Below, in pieces: positions 3 through 48,776 of a stretch of 55,222 nucleotides of DNA. Source of the stretch: Phycisphaerales bacterium (lineage in GTDB: Bacteria > Planctomycetota > Phycisphaerae > UBA1845); NCBI GenBank assembly GCA_013140575.1, contig JABFSN010000084.1, positions 1 through 55,222 of the forward strand, in the 5' to 3' direction. Under the pieces are notes generated by a model that saw only the letters and a program-made list of their open reading frames with translations, ran no database searches and had not been told where the DNA came from. The position numbers and the translations under genes were made by a program. Every line of letters begins with the position of its first letter. Within the stretch, counting starts at the first letter, position 1.

Positions 3-3000
3 ACCTCGGTCCGCCCCGTGGCGCCGCCGGCGCCGACGGGGCGGACCGCGGTGTTGAGCGTCGCGAAACTCGGTAACGGAACCGTCATGCGTACACCGAC
101 CGGTGCGGCGGTGATCGTCGCCGATGGCGATGGGTTTGAATATGCAATCAATACCGGCGTGCAACTGAACGCGGTGGATGCGGCGGATTCGTGTTTCCTG
201 CGATGGGGCGGTGACGTTTCATCGATGAATCGCTCGATCAACGTCACGCTGAACACGGCCAAGTTCGTGCTGGCGGAATTCGTGAACCGTTTCGCGCCGC
301 CGCCGGCGCCGATGCTGGACGGGCACGCGGTGCGAACTTCGGCGAATTCGATCTTGATGGGAGGCGGGGTTCAGACGTGCCAGAACGACGCGGCCGCGGT
401 GGTCGAGGTGGACGGACCGGCCGGGGTGGTGAACGCGCCGATCGTCAACGGGCGGTTCAATCTGAATGTGGCGTTGAGCGCGAACCGAACGAACACGTTG
501 TATTTCACGGTGGTCACGCGCGACGGGGTTCGGGGGGCGCCGGCGACGACAATCATCACGCAGGACGGTCAGGCGCCGGCGCTGTTCGTCGATTTTCCGC
601 CGGACGGATCGGAAGTGACGAACGATGTCACGGACGTGGCCGGTCGGGTGTCGGACATGCTGACCGGGTTTCTGGGACTGACGGTGACGGTGAACGGTCA
701 GCCGGCGATCGTCGATGCGGGAATCGGGACGAACGGGACGTTCGTGCGTTCCAGCGTGCCGCTGGCGATGGGGGCGAACGCGATTACGGCCGTGGCGATG
801 GACGCGCTGGGCAACACGCGGCAACGAATGGTCACGGTGACGCGGATCGCGGTGCCGGCGAACATGCCGCAAATGGCGGCGATGGCGGGCAACGGACAGA
901 TGGAACGGATACACGGGGTTCTGCCGGACCCGATCGCGGTGCAGGTGCTGCGGGCCGACGGGACGCCGTTCGTCGACAAGGTGGTGACGTTTACGGTGGA
1001 GCGCAGCGACGGGCAGTTGTTCGGCGAGACGGCCGTCGCGGGCGGTCCGGTCGGCGGATTGATGTTCCAGACGCGCACGGACGAGCAGGGCATGGCCCGG
1101 GCGCAGTGGCAGTTGGGATCGGACGCGGGGTGCGGCAACAACCGGGTGACGGTGACGTCGACGGGCATCGCGGGAACGACGTTTTTCTGCGCGTCGGCGA
1201 CGCCCGGGCCCGCGGCGCAGATCAACGTGGGGACGGGAAACTATCAGAAGGCGGAGGCGGGCGGGCCTGCGGCGCTGGCGTTGCGGGCGTGGGTCAACGA
1301 TGCATGCAACGGCGTGTCGGGCGTGCCGGTCACGTTCACGGTGACACGCGGGGGCGGACGGATCAACGACCGGACCAGCCTGACGGTGCCAACGAGTGAC
1401 ACCGGTCACGCGAGCGTGGATTTCGTGCTGGGACCGGACGCGGGGACGAACATCGTCGAGGCCGATTTCCCGACCAATCCGGGCGGACCGGCGCGGTTCG
1501 TGGTGTTCGGCGTGGAGCGGATGTTAGGCAGGTTTGAAGGGGTGGCCACGCGGTTTATCGGGGTGGTACACGACAATTCGGAACAGCCCCTACAGGGGGC
1601 GGCGATCACGTTGGGGGTCGGCGGACAAGGGTATTTCACGTCGACGGACGTGAACGGGTTGTTTGTGTTGGACGACATTCAGGAATCGGGGCCGGCGGAT
1701 TTGTTTATCGATGGCAGGACGGCGAATCATGTGGGCGGCGTGAACGGGGAGGACATTCCGGCGGGCAGTTTCCCGTCGCTGCATTTCGAGCCGGTGATAA
1801 TCCCGCGGGCGGACAACGCGCTGCCCATGACGGTGATGATGCCGCCGCTGAACCCGAACAACGCGCGGCTGTTCGACAACACGCAGGACGTGGAATTGAC
1901 GGTCGAGGGGATCGCGGGTCTGCGGATGATCGTGAAGGCCGGTTCGATGACGCGGGCGAATGGGACTGTTCCCAGCCCGGCGGATCCGGCGACGATTTCG
2001 CTGAATCAGGTGCACCACGACAAGGTTCCGATGCCGATGCCGGACGGTGCGGCGCCGCCGTTCGCGTGGACGTTGCAGCCGGGCGGCTCGACGTTCGACC
2101 CGCCGATCGAGATTCACTATCCGAATATGTCGGGACTGGCCCCGGGCAGCATCGCCTATTTTCTGAGCTTCAATCATGACACCATGCGATTCGAGATCGT
2201 GGCGTCGGGTTCGGTCGCGACGGATGGTTCGATCATCCGCACCGATCCGGGGGCGGGGCTGTCCATCGCGGGTTGGGGGTGCAACTGTCCGCCCTATTCG
2301 GTGACGGCGGATTGCGTCAATTGCACGCTGGAAGTGATCAACCTGGGTCCATCCGACACGGTGTTGGTGGGTGACGTGGTGTCGTTGCTCGGCAACGGCG
2401 AACCCGATCCCGGCACCATGACCTGGACCGGCGGCGGGACGCCCGCCAGCGGCGGCGGGGTCACGTTTTCTACGCAGTTCGCGACGCCGGGCGTCAAGAC
2501 CATTACGGCCGCGTGGGATCCGGATGACAGCGACGAGGATTGCGAATTTGAATACGAGATCACCGTGGTCGACGCGAAATTCAAGGAAGCGCCGGGAACG
2601 GCACACGGATTCGACGACCATACGGATGCGGTCAAGCCGCACAAATCGCTCGAAAAGGGCGGACAGGACGCCATCGTTGCGGATTTGGGCGCCAATACCG
2701 ACCAGGTGTTTTTCGTGAGCGCCAACGAGAATTTCTTCACCGCGCTGCCTGAAACATCGGGCGCCGCAATGGAAACGCTAACGCTGGACGGCGTGGATAT
2801 CGGATTCACGGAACTGACCGCAAACGTGGGCAGCGCGGCCGGCGACGAGGCCGCCGCGGCGCAGATTTCGGTTTACAACAAGGTCGGCAAGACGCTGATG
2901 ATCCGGCTGATCAACGAGCAGAACGACGACGTGGAGGTGGCGGCGCCGGGGGCGAACGTGGGCGCGGGGAGCACGTGCATCACGGCCGGGGGGAACACGT

Positions 3001-3608
3001 TTATTGATTCCATCATCAACGACACGCCCATCGGCGCCGGCGACGACGTGATCATGGGCATGACGGTGACGGCCGGTCCGGACGGCATCTGCGACACCAC
3101 GGTCAACAACGTGGACGTGCCGGGGACGGACGTGGCCGACGCGACGGTGCTCAATTACATGAACACGGTGGCCTACAACCAGGCGGTCGTCGAATGGACG
3201 ATTACGCGAATGCCGGCCGTCACGGTTAATTTCGATCTGAACCGCGACGGAAAGATTAACGTGGACACGGCGTTTCTGGCCAACCCGGAAATGCAGGCGG
3301 TCCGCGACGCGGCCAAGGACGACACGTTTGACCGCAACGTGTTTCTGGTGGACGGTCCGACGGACGGCAGCTACGGATTCGCGGGATTCAATCAGCGCTA
3401 CGCGTTCGTACACGGCGATACGCACATTTCGTCGCCTCCGCAGTCGATGGAAAACACCATCGCGCACGAAGTCGGGCACACGCTGGGCATGTGCCATCCC
3501 GACTCGGCCGCGTGCATCAGCGACGACGACATGATGAACCTGATGCACAGCGTGGCCACCAATCCGATGCGGCTGCGCAAGGCGCAATGGGACCAGTTGA
3601 ACCCGTAG
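3..3608 (+). CDS. Secreted multidomain protein with C-terminal metzincin-type zinc protease motif (5' partial)
   Basis: The frame is open to the left edge, so the true start and any signal peptide lie outside the window. GTG at 18 is only the first in-window start and residue numbers here count from it. Ig-like/Big-type beta domains cover about 150-510. A carboxypeptidase-regulatory-like domain covers about 515-570, with the pattern PLQGAAITL then VNGLF. A PKD-like stretch covers about 780-850. The C-terminus carries HEVGHTLGMCH (His1150, His1154, His1160, Glu1151), followed by a Met-turn-like NLMH. This matches the metzincin zinc site HExxHxxGxxH, so an extracellular metallopeptidase is likely. 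The upstream domains probably bind or space the catalytic end. The substrate is unknown. The next two genes on the strand are also secreted. Confidence 0.8.
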   Translation, partial: TSVRPVAPPAPTGRTAVLSVAKLGNGTVMRTPTGAAVIVADGDGFEYAINTGVQLNAVDAADSCFLRWGGDVSSMNRSINVTLNTAKFVLAEFVNRFAPPPAPMLDGHAVRTSANSILMGGGVQTCQNDAAAVVEVDGPAGVVNAPIVNGRFNLNVALSANRTNTLYFTVVTRDGVRGAPATTIITQDGQAPALFVDFPPDGSEVTNDVTDVAGRVSDMLTGFLGLTVTVNGQPAIVDAGIGTNGTFVRSSVPLAMGANAITAVAMDALGNTRQRMVTVTRIAVPANMPQMAAMAGNGQMERIHGVLPDPIAVQVLRADGTPFVDKVVTFTVERSDGQLFGETAVAGGPVGGLMFQTRTDEQGMARAQWQLGSDAGCGNNRVTVTSTGIAGTTFFCASATPGPAAQINVGTGNYQKAEAGGPAALALRAWVNDACNGVSGVPVTFTVTRGGGRINDRTSLTVPTSDTGHASVDFVLGPDAGTNIVEADFPTNPGGPARFVVFGVERMLGRFEGVATRFIGVVHDNSEQPLQGAAITLGVGGQGYFTSTDVNGLFVLDDIQESGPADLFIDGRTANHVGGVNGEDIPAGSFPSLHFEPVIIPRADNALPMTVMMPPLNPNNARLFDNTQDVELTVEGIAGLRMIVKAGSMTRANGTVPSPADPATISLNQVHHDKVPMPMPDGAAPPFAWTLQPGGSTFDPPIEIHYPNMSGLAPGSIAYFLSFNHDTMRFEIVASGSVATDGSIIRTDPGAGLSIAGWGCNCPPYSVTADCVNCTLEVINLGPSDTVLVGDVVSLLGNGEPDPGTMTWTGGGTPASGGGVTFSTQFATPGVKTITAAWDPDDSDEDCEFEYEITVVDAKFKEAPGTAHGFDDHTDAVKPHKSLEKGGQDAIVADLGANTDQVFFVSANENFFTALPETSGAAMETLTLDGVDIGFTELTANVGSAAGDEAAAAQISVYNKVGKTLMIRLINEQNDDVEVAAPGANVGAGSTCITAGGNTFIDSIINDTPIGAGDDVIMGMTVTAGPDGICDTTVNNVDVPGTDVADATVLNYMNTVAYNQAVVEWTITRMPAVTVNFDLNRDGKINVDTAFLANPEMQAVRDAAKDDTFDRNVFLVDGPTDGSYGFAGFNQRYAFVHGDTHISSPPQSMENTIAHEVGHTLGMCHPDSAACISDDDMMNLMHSVATNPMRLRKAQWDQLNP

Positions 3609-3701
3609 AAGGCGGCGAGGCAGGCGGAATGAACGGCATCAAGATGAATGAACCAAGCGAGTGTGACCGGCACGTGACAGCGTTCGGTGTGCGCGGCGAT
3701 C

Positions 3702-3751
3702 GTGGCACGGGCATCCTGCCGGTGACGGCATGGGCGGGACGCCCATGCCAC
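3702..3751. repeat. Dispersed repeat R1, copy 1
   Basis: Two short palindromic halves: GTGGCACGGGCATCCTGCC and then CATGGGCGGGACGCCCATG. Similar copies lie at 4879-4929, around 13063-13120 and, inverted, at 48735-48776. It sits between the metzincin gene and the next secreted protein gene. A further half copy (CACGCCCATGCCACG) lies near 3848-3862, inside the likely N-terminal coding region of that next gene. Confidence 0.75.
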
Positions 3752-3761
3752 GGTCACGCCG

Positions 3762-3783
3762 GTGCGAGAATCCCTTCTCGCAC
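3762..3783. repeat. Perfect inverted repeat next to R1
   Basis: GTGCGAGAA and TTCTCGCAC form a 9-bp stem with a 4-base loop (TCCC), directly after R1 copy 1 and about 50 bases before the likely start of the next gene. No T-tract follows, so a Rho-independent terminator is not supported. It may be part of a composite repeat. Confidence 0.6.
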
Positions 3784-3829
3784 GCCAACCGACAGGGATC
3801 CCCTCCCGCGGACCGTCCGCGTTCTGGCG

Positions 3830-4789
3830 GTGCCGAATCGGTCCGCACGCCCATGCCACGTTCTGGCGTCCATGGTCGCGATGTTGCTGATGCCGGCAAT
3901 GATTTCATTCGCCGACGACCGCCGGGCCGATGTTCGTTCAAGCGTCGCGGCGCACATGAACCGAATCCGTGGCGGCCATCCCGCGACGTCAGCCGCGGCC
4001 GACGCGATCCGCGGCGATGCCGCCGACATCGTCAAGGCCGCCGGCGAATTCGTTCTCGACGCGTCGCCGTCCGTTCGCCACGAGGCCTCAAAACTGATCG
4101 CGTCGACCGGTCTCGCGGAGCGCGACGCGACCGTTCGTCGGCAATCGGTCACGCTGCTGATCCAGGCCACGATTGACGCGGAGCCGCTCGTCTGGCAGCA
4201 CGCCTGCGACGATCTCCTGGAATTCCAGCCCACCGATTTCGATGACGCCGCCAAGACTGCGATGGCGACGATGCTGAACGGCGACGCGCCGAAACGGGAG
4301 ATCGTTCGCCTGGTCGGCGTTGCCGAATTGCGCGATGAAATGCCCCGGCTGGAATCACTGTTGATCGACGAATCGAAATTCGAAACCGGCGCGCAGGCCG
4401 GCCGGTGGTACGGAACCGTCGGTTGGGCCGCCCGATTGGCCCGGGCGCGAATGGGGTCGGATGCCGACCTGCGCCGCGCCATCGATCTGCTCGAAAACGA
4501 ATCCGAACACGTCACCCGCGTGACGGTTCTGCTCCGCGATCTGGCGTATATTCGCCGACCGGCCGCGTTCGCACACATCGGGAAATACCTCGACGACGAC
4601 GCGGAACTGCCCCCGACCAAGACCGGCGTCCCGGGCACGCCCTACGCCCAATACGCGATCGACGTCTTGGCCGGGACCGTTGGCGAATTCCCGGTGGCGC
4701 GTAAATACGTAGGCGCGTACACGAACGACGAGATCGCCGTTGGCCGGGCGTGGATGCAGCGGCATTTTCCGCCGGATGGGAATCGGTGA
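3830..4789 (+). CDS. Secreted HEAT-like helical repeat protein
   Basis: About 319 residues with an N-terminal signal peptide and then Ala/Arg/Asp-rich amphipathic helices (pattern SPSVRHEASKLIAS) resembling HEAT or PBS-lyase repeats. No catalytic motif is seen, so a scaffold or binding role is inferred. GTG 3830 gives a charged n-region (PNRSARPCHV) before the hydrophobic MVAMLLMPAMISFA. The alternative ATG 3872 leaves the signal peptide without a positive n-region. The RPCHV residues come from a half copy of repeat R1. The stop at 4787-4789 lies 4 bases before an ATG of the next gene, which suggests co-translation. The family is not recognised further. Confidence 0.65.
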   Translation: MPNRSARPCHVLASMVAMLLMPAMISFADDRRADVRSSVAAHMNRIRGGHPATSAAADAIRGDAADIVKAAGEFVLDASPSVRHEASKLIASTGLAERDATVRRQSVTLLIQATIDAEPLVWQHACDDLLEFQPTDFDDAAKTAMATMLNGDAPKREIVRLVGVAELRDEMPRLESLLIDESKFETGAQAGRWYGTVGWAARLARARMGSDADLRRAIDLLENESEHVTRVTVLLRDLAYIRRPAAFAHIGKYLDDDAELPPTKTGVPGTPYAQYAIDVLAGTVGEFPVARKYVGAYTNDEIAVGRAWMQRHFPPDGNR

Positions 4790-4793
4790 TCGG

Positions 4794-7700
4794 ATGCGAC
4801 GAATGGTGACGCAGATCGAATTCCTGTTGCCGCGAAGCGCCCAGCGGCGTCCGGCCATCCACGGCACGGGCGTTTCGCGTGGCACGGGCATCCTGCCCGT
4901 GCGAACATGGGCTGGAAGCCCATGCCACGGCGTTCGGTCCGTCCGCGCCGTTCTGCTGATCGCCGCGTTTACCGTCGTCGGCGGTCGAAGCGCATCCGCG
5001 CAGCTCGACGAGACGTGGACGGTCACGGTGAACGGGCAAAACGTGCAGGTCAATCCCGACGGCAGTTTCCGCATTCCGAACATCTCCGCCGCCGACCAGT
5101 TTGGTGCAGGCGGTCCGGGAACGTCACCCGATTTTCGGAGCGACGACATACTGATTCTGACAGGCCGCGGCCTGGTCAACGGCGTGCCCATGTACGTTAT
5201 CAGCGTGCCGTTCCAACTCGGTCGCGGCACGAATGTGCTCGGCCCGGACGATCTGTTCTATTCCACGTCACCGCCGCCGTTCCCCGATTCGATCCGCATC
5301 ACGGCCGACCCACCCGTCGTCGCGGCCGGACAAACGTCACAGATAACGGTCATCGGCACGCTGCTCGACGGCACCGAGGTAGACGTGACGCCGCGGACGG
5401 CCGGCACCATCTACCGGCTTAGTTCGTCGAATTCCGTGAATCTGATCAGCTCCAGCGGGCTGTTGTTCGCCAACGCCCCGGGAACCGTGTTCGTGACCGC
5501 GACGAATTTCGGCGCGACGGCCATCGCCCGGGTGGACATCGTCGTCGTCACCACCCCCACCACCGTCGAGGGATTCGTGCAACTGGCCGACGGGTCGCCC
5601 GTCGCGGGCGCCCAGGTCACCACCAATCTCGGCGACGACGGCGTCACGACCGCATCAGGCTTGTTTTCCATCCCCGCGGACGTGCCCGTGAGCGCCCAAT
5701 TGTCGGCCGACGCCACCGCCAACGTCGGCGGCGTCGATCTCGCGGGCACGTCGGTCCAGATGCCCGTGATTGCCAACGGCGTGACCGATCTGGGCATCAT
5801 CACGCTGTCCGGCTCGCCACCCGATGCCCCGCCCTATCTCTTCTCCACGCCGGCCATCCCGATTCTGAACGCGCGACCCACCGTCGTTCGTTCGGGCATT
5901 CTAAACGCCGACAATCGCACCGACCTGGCCGTGGCCACGGATGTCGGCTCCATCGACGTGTATTTCAATTCGCCCGGCGCCCGGTTCGGCTCCCCCGCGG
6001 GCATTCCGGTCGATTCCGTTTCGGATTTCGTCCTGGCCAATCTCGACACCGACGACGACCTCGACATCGCCGCCCTGTCGGCCACGTTCCCGAATTCGCA
6101 GGCGGTCATCGCCATCAACAACGGTAACGGCACGTTCTCCGGGCCGGTCTCGTTCCCGCTTCCGAATTTCTACGACTCCCTGCAGGCCGGCGATGTCGAC
6201 GGGAACGGAACGACCGACCTGGTGTTCGGCTCGACGGACAACGGCATTGAAATGGCCATACTGCCGAACAACGGCGACGCGATTTTCGGCGCCCCGCAAC
6301 TGATCCCGCTGAACAGCCAAGTCGCGAACATCCGTCTCGTGCACCTGAACGGGGACGACGATCTGGACATCGCCCTGCTGTTCGACGTCACCACCTGCTC
6401 CAAATGCGGCGGGCAGATCAACGGCGGCAAGTTCGGTGTGATGCTGAACGACGGCGCCGGCGGGTTCGAGCCGGTCGTCGAAATCAACACGCTCGGTTCA
6501 TCGCCGTTCGCGATGGAATTGGGGCACCTGAACGACGACGAATTCCTCGACGCGGTCGTGGCGCCGGGCGATAACGTCGTTCGGACCGTGCTCGGCAACG
6601 GCGACGGAACGTTTTCGCCGCCGGTGGATTCGCCGCTGAACGAATTCGCCCTGCTTTTTGTAATTGATGATTTCAACGGCGACGGCGACGGCGACGTGAT
6701 TGCCTTCAGCGACCGGCCCGACACCCTGCACCTGCTGACCGGCAACGGCGACGGTACGCTCGACGCCCCGCGACGCTTCCCCACCGGGGAGGAGCCCGCA
6801 TCGGCCGTCGCGGACGACTGGGACGGCGACGGCGACCGCGACCTGGCCGTGTGCAACCGCCGAAGCCAAAATGTCTCGTTGATGTTGAACAACGGTTCCG
6901 GCGGCTTCCCCCGCGATGCCTTCTACGCCACCGGCGGCACCTTCGATTTCGGGGAGGCCGAATTCATGACTGCCGCCGACTTCAACGGCGACGGCGACAT
7001 CGACATCCTGACCAACACCGGTCAGAACCTCGGCGTCTTCCTCAACGGCGGAAAGGGTTCGTTCGTCGGACCGGTGCCGACGGAACTCGATTGCCGCCCC
7101 TTCCTGCCCCTGTTCGCCGCCGACTTCGACGGCGACGGCAACAACGACGCCGCCTACGCCACCTCCTGCAACAACGCCTTCCGCGTCCTGTTCAACGCCG
7201 GCGACGGCCGCCTGGCTCGTCCGGTCGAGGCGTTTCACGTTGACGGCGGCATTCAGTTCTCCGCGGTGGGCGATCTGAACAACGACGGTCGCCCCGACCT
7301 GGTCGCCGCGGACCAATCCGGCGGCGGCGATACCGCGACGCAGCGCGGCAGTAACGGTCGACTGATCGCCGCGCTAAACCTCAGCGGCGGCGCGTTCTCC
7401 CCGGGGATTGAAACACCGCACAACCTGTCCGGCCTACAGGACATGGTCGTCGCCGAATTCACCGGCGACGCCGATCGCGACGTGGTTGCCATCGGCAATA
7501 ATGTTGCCAGCCTTTTCCCGGGCAACGGCGATGGCAGTTTCAGTGCCCGCACCGACTACGCATTGAACGGGTTCCCGCGTCGTGTGGGGGTCGGATTGCT
7601 GAACAACGACGCGTTCCTCGACCTGATCATCGCACTCGAAAATGGGATTATCATTTTCTTCAATGACGGGACCGGCGCCCCGGCCGCGGTGAACGAACTG

Positions 7701-9836
7701 CCCGACGATTTCGACATCCGCTACGAGCGCGTCTACGTCGCGGAAATGGACGGCGTGAACGGCGGCGACATCGTCGCCGTGCCCGGCGGCGAGCATTTCG
7801 ACGGCACCGTGGTCTGGCTGAACCTGGGAGGCGGTTCGTTCGGACCGCCCACCGTCTACGCCTCGCCGGCGTTCCAGAATTCCGACCTCGCCATCGCCGA
7901 TTTCGACGGTGACGGCGACCTCGATATCGCCCGCGGCCGCCAAGGCTCCCAATTTGACGGTCTCGCCGTCCTCCTCAACCGCACCGTCCCCAACGACTGC
8001 AACACCAACGGCATCGTCGACGACATCGACCTCGCCGCCGGCGGCGCCCTCGACTGCAACGAGAATGGCTTCCCCGACGCCTGCGATTCCGACTGCGACG
8101 CCAACACCACGCCCGATGACTGCGACGTGGCCGCCGGCGCCCCCGACTGCGACGGCGACCACATTCCCGACGAATGCGACACCGACTGCAACAAAAACGG
8201 CGCGCCCGACGACTGCGACTTGGCCGGCCTGGTGTCCATCGACTGCAACGAGAATCGCATCCCTGACGAATGCGAAATCGACGCCGGCTCGCCCGACGTC
8301 AACGCCGACGGCATCCTCGACGAGTGCGAACGCCGCTATTTCGTCGACGACGACGCACCCGTCGACGGCGACGGATTGACCTGGGCGACCGCCTTCAACG
8401 ATCTGCAGGTTCCGCTAACGCTCACCGACCGCTTCGGCGCCGGCAGTCGCACGGAAATATGGGTCGCGGCCGGCATCTACCGGCCGGCGACCGCAACGAC
8501 GTTCAACCGATTCGTCAGCTTCAACTTGCGCAAGGGCGCATCGTTGTTTGGCGGCTTCGCGGGGAACGAGGACCCGGCTGCGTTCGATCTTGCCGATCGC
8601 GATTTCGCGGCCAACGAAACCATTCTCAGCGGCGACCTGAACGGCAACGACACGGCCGATTTCGTCGGCTTCATGGGCTGTTTCAGCGGGCCGGGCAATC
8701 CCCACGCCCCCGGTTGCGAAGCGTTCGACCTGCACCCGTTCATGGTCGGCGACGGCGACGTCGACGCAGACGATCAGAATCTGCTACTGCTCGCTCAATC
8801 GTTCGACAACAGTTTTCACGTCGTCGCCGCCCGAAGCGTCGATCGTTCCGCGGTGCTCGACGGATTCACCATCACCGGCGGGAATTCGAACTCCACGAGC
8901 ATCGGGACCAACGAAACGCAAGGCGGCGGAATGTTCGTCGGGTTTTTCGCTGCACCCGCCAGCCCCACGGTGCGCAAGTGCCGGTTCGTGAACAATTTCG
9001 GCAACGTCCAGGGCGGCGCGCTCCACGTCGCCGAGAACACGTCCGAACCGTTGTTCGACGAGTGCGTGTTTGAATTCAACCGCGTGAACTCCGGCGGCGG
9101 GGCGGCCAGCATTGTGCGCAGTTCGCGACCCGTGTTCCGCCGCTGCCAGTTCGTCAGGAACAACGCCGGCGGATTCGGCGGCGGCGGCGTCAGCATCACC
9201 GACAGCGCCCGCCCCTTCTTCGCCAATTGCACATTCCTGCGGAACTTCGCGGGCAATGGCGGTGCCATCAACTCCCTCAACAGCACCGGCAGCAGCACGT
9301 TTGTCAACTGCCTGGTCAACGCGAACGTCGCCACGGGAACCGGCCGCGGCGGCGCCGTTCAGATCGGCGACGGCAGCCTTTCCATGATCAACTGTACGAT
9401 CGTCGACAATCGTGCCGACCAGGGCGGCGCAGCCCGAACCCATGCGTTCAGCCCGTTCCTGACGTTCACCAATTGCGTCATTCGCGGCAATGCGAGGCAC
9501 GACGGGACGCCCTCGTTATTCAGCATCGAGAACAACACCCCCGGTGTCGGCTTCTCCAACATTCAGGGCGGGTTCGCCGGAATGGCCAACATCGACGCCG
9601 ATCCGCTGTTCAGCGATTCCGACGGCCCCGACGACATTCCGAACACCCTCGACGACGACTTCCGCCTGCTGAACGGCTCGCCCTGCATCGACGCCGGCAA
9701 CAACGCTTCGCTTCGCCCCGACACCGCCGACCTCGACGCCGACGGCGACACGGCCGAAATCACCCCCCACGACCTCGACGACAACCCCCGCGTCGCCGGA
9801 ACAACCGTCGAGATGGGACCTTACGAACTGCCGTAA
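4794..9836 (+). CDS. Giant secreted adhesin-like protein: FG-GAP propellers, calcium-binding Cys repeats, beta-helix
   Basis: About 1680 residues. A signal peptide (RAVLLIAAFTVVGG, cleaved near SASAQ) is followed by a carboxypeptidase-regulatory-like domain at about 260-330. Fourteen FG-GAP/VCBS-type repeats follow (for example DFNGDGDIDIL), enough for two seven-bladed propellers. Then come seven DCNxNxxPDxCD-type acidic Cys repeats, like thrombospondin type 3 calcium-binding repeats. The last 450 residues look like a right-handed beta-helix (WATAFNDLQ, then EIWVAAGIYRP, then FxNCxFxxN-type rungs). An extracellular adhesion or carbohydrate-binding role is inferred. The start is uncertain: ATG 4794 or 4803 gives a 50-residue n-region containing translated R1, while GTG 4899 lies inside R1 and gives a normal signal peptide. 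It follows the helical-repeat gene closely. Confidence 0.85.
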   Translation: MRRMVTQIEFLLPRSAQRRPAIHGTGVSRGTGILPVRTWAGSPCHGVRSVRAVLLIAAFTVVGGRSASAQLDETWTVTVNGQNVQVNPDGSFRIPNISAADQFGAGGPGTSPDFRSDDILILTGRGLVNGVPMYVISVPFQLGRGTNVLGPDDLFYSTSPPPFPDSIRITADPPVVAAGQTSQITVIGTLLDGTEVDVTPRTAGTIYRLSSSNSVNLISSSGLLFANAPGTVFVTATNFGATAIARVDIVVVTTPTTVEGFVQLADGSPVAGAQVTTNLGDDGVTTASGLFSIPADVPVSAQLSADATANVGGVDLAGTSVQMPVIANGVTDLGIITLSGSPPDAPPYLFSTPAIPILNARPTVVRSGILNADNRTDLAVATDVGSIDVYFNSPGARFGSPAGIPVDSVSDFVLANLDTDDDLDIAALSATFPNSQAVIAINNGNGTFSGPVSFPLPNFYDSLQAGDVDGNGTTDLVFGSTDNGIEMAILPNNGDAIFGAPQLIPLNSQVANIRLVHLNGDDDLDIALLFDVTTCSKCGGQINGGKFGVMLNDGAGGFEPVVEINTLGSSPFAMELGHLNDDEFLDAVVAPGDNVVRTVLGNGDGTFSPPVDSPLNEFALLFVIDDFNGDGDGDVIAFSDRPDTLHLLTGNGDGTLDAPRRFPTGEEPASAVADDWDGDGDRDLAVCNRRSQNVSLMLNNGSGGFPRDAFYATGGTFDFGEAEFMTAADFNGDGDIDILTNTGQNLGVFLNGGKGSFVGPVPTELDCRPFLPLFAADFDGDGNNDAAYATSCNNAFRVLFNAGDGRLARPVEAFHVDGGIQFSAVGDLNNDGRPDLVAADQSGGGDTATQRGSNGRLIAALNLSGGAFSPGIETPHNLSGLQDMVVAEFTGDADRDVVAIGNNVASLFPGNGDGSFSARTDYALNGFPRRVGVGLLNNDAFLDLIIALENGIIIFFNDGTGAPAAVNELPDDFDIRYERVYVAEMDGVNGGDIVAVPGGEHFDGTVVWLNLGGGSFGPPTVYASPAFQNSDLAIADFDGDGDLDIARGRQGSQFDGLAVLLNRTVPNDCNTNGIVDDIDLAAGGALDCNENGFPDACDSDCDANTTPDDCDVAAGAPDCDGDHIPDECDTDCNKNGAPDDCDLAGLVSIDCNENRIPDECEIDAGSPDVNADGILDECERRYFVDDDAPVDGDGLTWATAFNDLQVPLTLTDRFGAGSRTEIWVAAGIYRPATATTFNRFVSFNLRKGASLFGGFAGNEDPAAFDLADRDFAANETILSGDLNGNDTADFVGFMGCFSGPGNPHAPGCEAFDLHPFMVGDGDVDADDQNLLLLAQSFDNSFHVVAARSVDRSAVLDGFTITGGNSNSTSIGTNETQGGGMFVGFFAAPASPTVRKCRFVNNFGNVQGGALHVAENTSEPLFDECVFEFNRVNSGGGAASIVRSSRPVFRRCQFVRNNAGGFGGGGVSITDSARPFFANCTFLRNFAGNGGAINSLNSTGSSTFVNCLVNANVATGTGRGGAVQIGDGSLSMINCTIVDNRADQGGAARTHAFSPFLTFTNCVIRGNARHDGTPSLFSIENNTPGVGFSNIQGGFAGMANIDADPLFSDSDGPDDIPNTLDDDFRLLNGSPCIDAGNNASLRPDTADLDADGDTAEITPHDLDDNPRVAGTTVEMGPYELP
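4879..4929. repeat. Dispersed repeat R1, copy 2, in frame with a signal peptide
   Basis: GTGGCACGGGCATCCTGCC, then CATGGGCTGGAAGCCCATG and CCACG. It is translated in the frame of the giant secreted protein as TGILPVRTWAGSPCHG, immediately before the hydrophobic signal core. No start codon lies between the repeat and that core except GTG 4899 within the repeat itself. Confidence 0.75.
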
Positions 9837-12010: not shown

Positions 12011-12759
12011 GTCGGTCCGCCCTCGTTCGCCGCGCGGATTTCCGCCCGGCGGTCCATCCAAAAATTGATCATCAGCAGCCCCACGCCCGCCACCAGCAGC
12101 GAATCGGCGACGTTGAACACCCACGGCCAAACGTCGCGACCGGCGACCCGCGGCTCGAATTTCAGAAAATCGCGTACGATGCCCACGCGGCGGATGTCCG
12201 CGATGTCGGAACGCCGGATGCGACGCACCGGCGGCAAGCCGTCCGGCGGCGATCCCACTTCCACGTAATCGGCATGCGCGTCGGACACCACCCGCCCATA
12301 GAATTCCGGCTGGCTCCTCCCGTCATTGTCCTTGAACGCGATTCGATCGGCGGAAATGAACGTCCGGTCGTACAGATTGCCCAGCGAACCGGCCAAAACG
12401 AACGACAACGCCACGTGCAACGATCGCCGATTCGGCCGACTGCCCGCGAACAGGTACATCACGAACGCCAGCGCCACGAACGACGCCACGATAAACAAGC
12501 CCACCAGACCGCGGCCCATGCCGAACAACGCACCCGGATTGATCGAACGGCGGAACGTCAGAATCGCGGGAATGGCGGTATGGACGTCGTTGGGGCCCAG
12601 TACGGCGAACGCCCACGACTTGGTCCACAAATCCAGCGCCAGCGCCGCCCCGGCTACAATCCACAGCCTGGCGTGCGCGCCGACATCGTAAAACGCCGAT
12701 CTTGCGCCGTCTTCGTGATGCGCGGCCTCGGCGATGGATGGGTCGGCGGCTGATGTCAT
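12007..12759 (-). CDS. lspA: Lipoprotein signal peptidase LspA with a large loop insertion
   Basis: 250 residues against about 160-170 in typical LspA. It is a membrane aspartic protease that removes signal peptides from prolipoproteins. Conserved parts are DLWTKSWA (about 43-50), NPGALFG (74-80), GSLGNLYDR (about 124-132) and FNVADS (215-220). The likely catalytic Asp residues are Asp197 (VRDFLKF) and Asp219. Between GNLYDR and VRDF there are about 60 residues where a few are usual, giving a charged periplasmic loop insertion. Four hydrophobic segments are visible. The stop overlaps the ribD start. Upstream lie repeat arrays R2 and R1 and then the dksA-like gene. Lipoproteins it could process are encoded at 37347-38423 and 47271-48575. 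Confidence 0.92.
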   Translation of the reverse strand: MTSAADPSIAEAAHHEDGARSAFYDVGAHARLWIVAGAALALDLWTKSWAFAVLGPNDVHTAIPAILTFRRSINPGALFGMGRGLVGLFIVASFVALAFVMYLFAGSRPNRRSLHVALSFVLAGSLGNLYDRTFISADRIAFKDNDGRSQPEFYGRVVSDAHADYVEVGSPPDGLPPVRRIRRSDIADIRRVGIVRDFLKFEPRVAGRDVWPWVFNVADSLLVAGVGLLMINFWMDRRAEIRAANEGGPT

Positions 12760-12822: not shown

Positions 12823-13010
12823 TGTCTGGCGTCCCGCAGGGACGCGATGAATGTAGCCCAGCACTTCAGTGCTGGGATGACGCTGTTCATGAATCCGTTA
12901 GTCCCGAAGGGACGCCTGAAGCGGAACGCGGCGTTTCAGCCGTCCCTTGGGGACTCGGCGCTATCACGACGTCGGCGTACGCCATGTTGAAACACGGGGC
13001 TACATTCACG
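12823..13010. repeat. Composite dispersed repeat R2, copy 1
   Basis: A chain of small palindromes: GGCGTCCCGCAGGGACGC, CAGCACTTCAGTGCTG, GTCCCGAAGGGAC, a TTTCAGCCGTCCCTT block, then TGTTGAAACACGGGGCTACA. The same ordered modules recur at 23821-24082. It fills the gap between the dksA-like gene and lspA. No coding function is supported. Confidence 0.8.
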
Positions 13011-13062: not shown

Positions 13063-13120
13063 ACGCCCACGGGCGAGACGCCCGTGCCACCTGTTTTCAC
13101 GGGCAGGATGCAAGTGCCAC
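13063..13120. repeat. Dispersed repeat R1-type units
   Basis: Two R1-like half units: GCCCACGGGCGAGACGCCC plus GTGCCAC, then CACGGGCAGGATGCAAGTGC plus CAC. They lie just downstream of the dksA-like stop codon and adjoin the R2 array. Confidence 0.65.
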
Positions 13121-23820: not shown

Positions 23821-24082
23821 TGAATGGAGCCCAGTACTTCGTTCGTTCTTAGCGTCCCACAGGGACGCGCTGCATGTAGCCCGGTACTTCGTATGTGTTT
23901 GGCGTCCCTTGGCGACGCTGTGAATGTAGCCCAGCACTTCAGTGCTGGGATGACGGCGCCGCCAGGAGCCCATAGTCCCGAAGGGATGGCTGAAGCGCCC
24001 TGCGGGATTTCAGCCGTCCCTTCGGGACTCGGTGCCATTGGGTCTCCGGCGTACCCCGCGTTGAAACGCGGGGCTACATTCA
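23821..24082. repeat. Composite dispersed repeat R2, copy 2
   Basis: Same ordered modules as 12823-13010, here longer. It has three successive GCGTCCC-type and TGTAGCCC-type units, then CAGCACTTCAGTGCTG, TAGTCCCGAAGGGA, TTTCAGCCGTCCCTTC and GTTGAAACGCGGGGCTACAT. It lies between ada and the HsdR-N-type gene. No coding function is supported. Confidence 0.85.
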
Positions 24083-39931: not shown

Positions 39932-40033
39932 GAAACCCGAATCAGAGCCGCGGGGCGCAAGCCCGCGGTTTCTTAAGACGCGGGGCGCCTCCGATGCTCC
40001 GATCACCGGGCCTACGCCCGGTACTTTGAAACA
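39932..40033. repeat. Dispersed repeat R4, copy 1
   Basis: Modules: GAAACCCGAATCAGAGCCGC, then GGCGCAAGCCCGC, and CACCGGGCCTACGCCCGGT with a final TTTGAAAC. A second copy in the same orientation lies at 48614-48713. Each lies just upstream of a minus-strand gene for an exported protein. Confidence 0.8.
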
Positions 40034-40419
40034 GGTGGAATACGCTAAACACGTACAGCGTACTCGCTTGCCGGCGGTTTCAGTTCCGCGCGTTCGCTTT
40101 GCTTTATCGTAAACACCGACGGTACCCGGGCACCGGCGGCGCGTCGCTCTCGTCACCAGCGCGGGGGCAACGACCGTGTAGAATCACCGACCCCCACACC
40201 GAGTTCACGGACCAAACGACATCATCGCCCCGTACCACCCCACGGTCAATCGCCGGGCAAGCGAGTTTCCGCAGAAACCGTCAATTGATGGCCGCCAATA
40301 ACACCACGCCCGATCAGTCCGACAGCGCCATTGCGATTCTTGCGTCCCATCGCGAATTCCCGACAGCGGCCGTACCGTCCACCTCCCGGTCAGGCCGGCC
40401 CGATGGCTCGTCAATTCGC

Positions 40420-48613: not shown

Positions 48614-48713
48614 GAAATCCGAAATCAGAGCCGCGGGCGCAAGCCCGTGGACGCCTGAAACGCGGAACGCCTTCGATCCGCCAATCACCGGGCCTGCGCC
48701 CGGTGCTCTGAAA
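48614..48713. repeat. Dispersed repeat R4, copy 2
   Basis: Modules match copy 1: GAAATCCGAAATCAGAGCCG, then GGCGCAAGCCCG and CACCGGGCCTGCGCCCGGTG with a final CTGAAAC. It lies 40-140 bases upstream of the lipoprotein esterase start, and its reading frame continues in frame with that gene. Confidence 0.8.
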
Positions 48714-48734
48714 CGGACGGCATGAGCGCGACAG

Positions 48735-48776
48735 GCGCCCAACCCATGTGTTCACGGGCAAGATGCCCGTGCCACC
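48735..48776. repeat. Dispersed repeat R1, inverted copy
   Basis: Read on the minus strand it is GGTGGCACGGGCATCTTGCC, then CGTGAACACATGGGTTGGG. It is directly adjacent to R4 copy 2 and upstream of the lipoprotein esterase. Translated in that gene's frame it again gives TGILPV. Confidence 0.7.

Follow-up and report, generated by a model that had tools for sequence, protein, structure and literature searches.

A GTGG-tagged REP dimer near the 5' ends of genes with predicted signal peptides in a Phycisphaerales bacterium

Systems in which GTAG-tagged repetitive extragenic palindromic (REP) sequences, bacterial interspersed mosaic elements (BIMEs) or REP doublets forming hairpins (REPINs) occur together with a REP-associated tyrosine transposase (RAYT) were reportedly described by Nunvar in 2010 and by Bertels and Rainey in 2011. 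Here we describe R1, a dispersed palindromic repeat in a 55,222-nt contig of a Phycisphaerales bacterium (JABFSN010000084.1 of assembly GCA_013140575.1; the whole contig is called the window below), where it occurs close to the 5' ends of two consecutive genes for predicted exported proteins, here called gene 2 and the giant gene (Table 1). R1 is a GTGG-tagged REP dimer of the BIME/REPIN type. It was probably inserted, with a RAYT as its probable means of spread, close to the 5' ends of genes whose signal peptides were already present. The genome to which the window belongs is referred to as G000 and the window as its locus C96; the other G numbers denote relatives.

REPs with a GTAG foot have been reported for the PVC (Planctomycetes-Verrucomicrobia-Chlamydiae) superphylum, and in Opitutus terrae most of the GTAG-20 elements carry GTGG instead of GTAG (PMC3733652, in the passages cited here); GTGG is also described as a REP foot in the relevant passages of PMC6006769. 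REP dimers or groups may lie in frame within genes and encode 20-30 residues, some of them NH2-terminal, although the same passages of PMC3733652 (Di Nocera et al. 2013) warn that many or most of the NH2-terminal coding REPs may be misannotated; Rickettsia proteins with an N-terminal RPE-1, one of the Rickettsia palindromic elements (RPE), are said there to be expressed in vivo. A third type of precedent is MITEAba12, from which adjacent coding sequences take their first four residues, MQQS (PMC6382973, in the part that deals with these sequences).

R1 resembles the GTAG-type REP, BIME and REPIN elements in having a tetranucleotide foot, a short hairpin, inverted dimers, a high and mostly intergenic copy number and a RAYT that is flanked by hairpins. 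It resembles the intragenic REPs and the RPE in that it is read in frame at an N-terminus, but the residues that it adds fall in the n-regions of signal peptides, a location that is not singled out in the passages cited from PMC3733652. With MITEAba12 it shares that a miniature element supplies 5' coding sequence, but the type of element differs and the cited part of PMC6382973 describes no fusion to a signal peptide. Within one open-access library we found no paper that linked REPs to signal peptides, judged by title and the start of the abstract, and none that was related to the core letters of R1, judged by title and abstract.

Anatomy, distribution and probable mobilisation of R1

The two full copies of R1 are 87% alike in a repeat comparison within the window. 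Each consists of two inverted units, and each unit of an unpaired GTGG foot followed by a hairpin with an 8-bp stem. Allowing at most 3 mismatches, the unit pattern matched 244 times in the 5.05-Mb genome, against 4 matches of a reversed control. The original description of R1 as a dispersed element of the mobile kind is borne out. The units were surveyed in a sample (100 of the 244 matches listed for G000 and 100 of 174 for the relative G016, for which 60 of 63 regions were taken in; in the first look at R1 candidates 40 of 128 had been scored). At the 76 sampled loci of G000 we counted 184 units in 94 clusters (93 with the slightly different unit pattern that was also used in the cluster analyses), 43 of which comprised exactly two units, as did 55 of the 67 clusters in G016. 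Most of the 94 clusters were located between unidirectional genes (58), the others between divergent (12) or convergent (9) genes, at the ends of the stretches (8) or overlapping a gene (7); overlap with a called gene was found for 2 of the 67 clusters in G016. Neighbouring pairs that were inverted and had the spacing of a dimer numbered 34 in G000 and 55 in G016. The foot was GTGG in 150 of the 184 units of G000, and GTGG (74) or GTAG (32) in most of the 128 units of G016. The tetranucleotide foot with hairpin, the inverted dimers and the high, mainly intergenic copy number are those of the REP/BIME elements of the GTAG superfamily, and on this anatomy and distribution R1 is assigned to them.

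R1 differs from the known GTAG REPs in that its stem and loop letters are confined to few genomes. We found R1 in 2 of the 10 other genomes searched (candidates scored: 40 of 227 in G030, 40 of 71 in G006). Among 114 genomes of the order, 3 contained an exact but flexible dimer pattern (control: 0); among named genomes an exact dimer pattern was present at three loci, all within one planctomycete metagenome-assembled genome.

The own genome contains eight matches to Y1 transposases, of which the one at locus C164 is a RAYT (NCBIfam NF047646, 85.2 bits with a cut-off of 80). GTGG hairpins lie on either side of it, and two of them begin with GTGGCACGGGC, like R1; these hairpins (GTGGCACGGGCAAGCG...) equal R1 in the foot and the base of the stem and have a longer stem. 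In addition, an R1-type unit with zero mismatches is found about 0.8 kb from this gene. The R1-like hairpins that flank the C164 RAYT make mobilisation by a RAYT likely, short of proof, and R1 was thus probably spread in this way. Three observations weigh against such a simple picture. Homologues of the RAYT were present in 11 of the 12 relatives searched, including genomes in which R1 was not found. Around the two RAYT loci of G016 that were tested, the hairpin finder detected no GTRG hairpin. Finally, unlike plain REPs, the dimers of G016, whose feet are GTGG or GTAG, are nested in a longer inverted-repeat element (about 107 nt) with ends reading CTAGCAGCCYGTGGCRAAA (consensus of 55 dimers), and the mobile unit in that genome may not be a plain REP and may differ between genomes. 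An example of this longer element is found in L236, at about 12129-12235.

R1 and the starts of gene 2 and the giant gene

On contig C27 of G003, homologues of gene 1 (the upstream neighbour of gene 2), gene 2 and the giant gene are found in the same order as in the window, with identities of 58% (1196 aligned positions), 42% and 49% (aligned N-terminal part), respectively, and no match to R1 was found in the G003 genome. Gene 2 of G003 can start 21 nt past the stop codon of gene 1, reading MKRNMILKDTGRRACKSLVITIIVTCVSAPSMGQE, and the ATG of its giant gene overlaps the stop codon of gene 2 (TAATG) and leads via MRKTGRLMVLMLAVLVTPSLG to QLDDSW, so that ordinary, REP-free signal peptides are predicted for both proteins. 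In the window, ATG 3629 and ATG 4794 are the places that match these starts. Among more distant homologues of the giant protein, we saw by eye no R1-like residues in the leaders of those in G010, G013, G017 and G020, nor in that of an additional G003 homologue; in those of G014 and G029 and in a second copy in the own genome (C185) the open frame extends 449-934 codons further upstream, and the N-terminus of the G032 homologue is ambiguous. For gene 2, homologues outside the own genome were found only in G003 and G030 (60 genomes).

Since G003 keeps both predicted signal peptides in the absence of R1, R1 is not required for either of them, and this is most simply explained if both predate R1, which would have been gained in the window. 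The proposal that the element offers a route for the birth or relocation of secretion signals thus finds no support here. The relatives of two further genes that are preceded by REPs in G000, at loci C243 and C108 (see below), likewise have leaders without a REP, and several of these relatives, like the G003 pair, do have a signal peptide.

The original prediction was right that the copy of R1 in the giant gene lies in frame before the signal peptide core, which begins 18 nt further on, and that GTG 4899, within R1, is the sole in-frame ATG, GTG or TTG from the start of R1 to that core. Any standard start must hence be located at R1 or further upstream, since none of these codons occurs between the repeat and the core. 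That R1 itself has to supply the start did not hold up, because several in-frame start codons are found upstream of it (ATG 4776, 4794 and 4803, GTG 4806, and TTG 4740 and 4827, in a frame that is open from 4713). The frame from ATG 4794 is open through R1 as far as the signal core, as is the one from ATG 3629 in gene 2; the gene caller, with its own codon model, picked ATG 4803 for the giant gene. With a codon model from whose training the window was excluded, we obtained scores of +0.23 per codon for positions 4803-4877 and +0.12 for 4794-4877, of -0.14 for R1 within the giant gene and of +0.13 for the core stretch. For reference, called genes averaged +0.18 over their first 28 codons, and the 28 codons preceding a called start averaged -0.29; of 232 such upstream stretches, 1 scored above 0.1 and 7 scored above 0. 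The start of the giant gene most likely lies upstream of R1, with ATG 4794 as the favoured codon, and, given that the stretch before R1 scores as coding and given the position of this ATG, R1 was most likely inserted within an existing n-region of the giant protein.

Some points count against this placement. The called starts were chosen by the same coding score, which means that the contrast between gene starts and upstream stretches is partly built in. With ATG 4794 the giant protein would have a leader of 69 residues, which is long, whereas the 34 residues counted from GTG 4899 are within the range of the leaders of its homologues (about 21-41, counted by eye). The three-gene order, moreover, was seen in one relative only, and R1 could have been lost there.

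The situation at gene 2 is less clear-cut. In-frame starts include ATG 3629, 3644 and 3872 besides GTG 3830, and R1, a second palindrome and a fragment of R1 are crowded within about 260 nt ahead of the signal core, where G003 has a gap of 21 nt before its start. The fragment does encode most of the RPCHV that had been ascribed to a half copy of R1: it is an exact 14-mer (ACGCCCATGCCACG) that is read as RPCH and occurs in the window at just one other place, in the full copy of R1 (at 3739). The leader DNA scored near zero at 3629-3700 (-0.07) and as non-coding at 3755-3871 (-0.19 to -0.27). The latter score would fit a wholly extragenic R1, with gene 2 starting downstream at ATG 3872, the giant gene starting at a non-standard codon and the open frames through R1 being a by-product of GC-rich DNA. 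The single REP unit at 48753 illustrates such a case. A lipoprotein-like core follows it in frame, but the next 59 codons score -0.30 and the gene behind it scores well only from GTG 48575; the suspicion in the cited passages of PMC3733652 that many or most NH2-terminal REPs are extragenic sequences drawn in by misannotation points the same way. We nevertheless consider it very improbable that R1 is extragenic throughout, because the giant gene has no ATG, GTG or TTG between R1 and its core and because a start at ATG 3872 would deprive gene 2 of a charged n-region. Open frames through R1-type REPs are common and can be non-coding, which calls for caution in annotation.

In the explanation that we prefer, a RAYT would mobilise the REP dimer, and R1 would land near the 5' ends of genes with pre-existing signal peptides. 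In the giant gene, R1 would lie within the coding n-region, downstream of a start codon beside the stop codon of gene 2, and would lengthen by about 17 residues (RGTGILPVRTWAGSPCH) a leader that is presumably cleaved off anyway, the longer n-region apparently being tolerated. Insertions of this kind would be retained because n-regions are under weak constraint and the element often has no in-frame stop codon, and a preference of the element for signal peptides would not be needed. This suggests that n-regions are so loosely constrained that a mobile palindrome can sit inside one and perhaps replace one.

REPs directly before signal peptide cores

We found six loci at which a REP cluster of at least two units ends 0-24 nt ahead of a signal peptide core, in frame and with no start codon in between, namely C96 (the giant gene), C108, C171 and C243 in G000 and C13 and C27 in G016. 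The in-frame arrangement that had been predicted to recur thus does recur; the repeated donation of start codons and n-regions that was read into it most likely does not extend to the start of the giant gene. Such a donation would mean that R1-type REPs repeatedly supply a start codon and a basic n-region (GTG or ATG, often with K or R next, and WAGSPCH-like codons) where their insertion has destroyed the gene's own start, which we regard as unlikely. A bias in frame is apparent only among these six loci, which all use one shared frame, with a P of about 0.008 for any frame that is post hoc because the loci were chosen after the hits had been seen. Readable frames with a start inside the REP numbered 205, 117 and 225 over the three frames (547 in total), the shared frame being the one with 205. 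The frame upstream of the REP scored as non-coding at C171 (-0.51), C108 (-0.39) and C13 of G016 (-0.38) and weakly so at C243 (-0.18, where the gene body itself reaches only 0.09). At C108, where the protein has matches in all 60 genomes searched (own genome and paralogues counted), the codons ahead of the core come from the REP and read MRTRAGCPCH, in the place where the relatives in G029 (MVGRRLARLISVACVALASSARAGG) and G020 (MTRRNAILIPLLCLTVAHPLSA) have a basic n-region of their own next to the core.

Other loci argue against start donation. The stretch upstream of R1 in the giant gene looks coding, C27 of G016 is ambiguous (+0.02, with in-frame starts upstream of the REP), and at C108, C171 and C13 uncharged or TTG starts are available inside the core. 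The six loci were kept from 11 rows in which a REP seemed to supply the leader. The other five were judged spurious or unsuitable for comparison and were set aside: at C9 59316 there is a lone degenerate unit (3 mismatches) with an ATG just ahead, at C96 48753 the REP is 174 nt away and the leader scores as non-coding, at C44 208211 of G016 the REP contains a stop codon, and the leaders at C75 26158, where there is a single unit, and at C44 77947 of G016 are prepilin-like. From the 10 hits in which the end of a REP adjoined a core we dropped, besides C9, C25 11893 and C13 64245 of G016, where nearby called genes are on the opposite strand, and C12 43109 of G016, which has no called gene nearby in that direction.

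The numbers also speak against a preference of REPs for signal peptides, and the original prediction had itself named the lack of such a bias among R1 copies as grounds for its rejection. Using genes and starts from our own codon model and a crude hydrophobicity rule for signal peptides, we classified as exported-looking 43 of the 85 genes with a REP upstream in G000 and 25 of 48 in G016; for the full sets of called genes the corresponding figures were 210 of 468 and 156 of 337. Pooled, this amounts to 68/133 versus 366/805 (P 0.26), that is, no enrichment, in a comparison that looked for cores over a slightly wider stretch in REP genes than in the background, that kept the REP genes within the background set and that entered some genes for two REP clusters. 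When only distinct genes are considered the fractions are 40/79 in G000 and 25/48 in G016, and a second version of the signal peptide rule gave 32/81 versus 171/468. The number of in-frame REPs without a start before the core did not significantly exceed that expected if insertion were uniform over the stretch from the upstream gene to the signal core, neither in G000 (7 observed, 7.46 expected, P 0.67) nor in G016 (4 observed, 1.81 expected, P 0.10). Random positions in the same loci, including positions inside genes, gave 4.25 (G000) and 4.30 (G016), with 6 and 4 observed. REP ends adjoined a signal core in none of 18 cases at 9 loci of G002 and in none of 33 at 15 loci of G006.

Taken as they stand, the six loci suggest that exported proteins can in some instances acquire their start and n-region from a REP, and we saw no sign that this happens more often than neutral insertion would allow. 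It is conceivable, although we lean against it, that the REP dimer acts as a ready-made leader cassette, one frame of which gives a GTG or ATG, usually with a basic residue close behind it, and codons such as WAGSPCH, and so rescues genes whose start was destroyed by the insertion. If that were true, the n-regions of exported proteins would turn over by transposition, and the leaders involved would span those of the Sec type, the lipoprotein-like type (C171) and, in a looser sense, the prepilin-like type, since C75 26158 in G000 and C44 77947 in G016 have prepilin-like leaders that adjoin REPs and look similar. The passages cited from PMC3733652 leave it open whether N-terminal REPs are coding, and the giant gene, C108, C171, C243 and C13 of G016 offer concrete loci for that question. 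On the reverse complement of L263 (G016 C44), at about 4029-4150, we also noticed a prepilin-like leader, with LHRVGRFSPRAAERAG preceding LTLLEVML, that seems to be read mostly from the mobile element, with a GTG inside the element as a possible start.

Features of the window

The features discussed above and the remaining members of the R1 family in the window are collected in Table 1.

Table 1. Genes, candidate start codons and palindromic elements in the 55,222-nt window
Feature	Position	Strand	Remarks
Gene 1, 1196-aa open reading frame (ORF), upstream neighbour	18..3608	+	ORF; 58% identical to G003 homologue
Gene 2, predicted exported protein	3629..4789	+	several candidate starts; no Pfam or NCBIfam match
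Gene 2 ATG	3629..3631	+	20 nt past gene 1 stop; G003 start at matching place (21 nt)
R1 copy A, REP dimer	3701..3753	+	units 3702-3724 (+) and 3729-3751 (-); between genes 1 and 2, in open frame of gene 2
Second dispersed palindrome, GGTGCGAGAATCCCTTCTCGCAC	3761..3783	+	26 matches with at most 3 substitutions in sampled own-genome loci (both strands, overlapping loci counted)
Alternative gene 2 start, GTG	3830..3832	+	VPNRSARPCHVLAS...; precedes half copy
R1 terminal fragment (half copy)	3847..3860	+	exact 14-mer ACGCCCATGCCACG; RPCH in gene 2 frame
Alternative gene 2 start, ATG	3872..3874	+	MVAMLLMPAMISFA, no charged n-region; gene caller's choice
Giant gene, predicted exported protein	4794..9836	+	FG-GAP repeats, beta-helix region
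Favoured giant start, ATG	4794..4796	+	4 nt past gene 2 stop (4787-4789)
R1 copy B, REP dimer	4878..4930	+	units 4879-4901 (+) and 4906-4928 (-); within giant ORF, signal core 18 nt on
Alternative giant start, GTG	4899..4901	+	within R1; 34-residue signal peptide
Signal peptide core and c-region of giant protein (predicted)	4947..5000	+	AVLLIAAFTVVGGRSASA; QLDETW from 5001
Further REP pair, R1 family	13068..13120	.	intergenic
Single REP unit	48753..48775	-	in frame, lipoprotein-like core 174 nt on; DNA scores non-coding

No tRNA was found in the window, and the five matches to Rfam in 3500-5500 were to microRNA families only, scored far under the gathering scores and are attributed to chance. 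The palindrome at 3761-3783 looks like a second short mobile element. Other hairpins, at 12848-12876, 23921-23949 and 24054-24082, have the form GTAGCCC...GGGC (e.g. GTAGCCCAGCACTTCAGTGCTGGG) and by eye resemble canonical GTAG REPs. An 89-nt dispersed repeat at 39953-40041 and 48635-48723 (the copies being 78% alike) appears by eye to be unrelated to R1; its second copy lies within the open leader frame, scoring as non-coding, of a lipoprotein-like gene on the minus strand.

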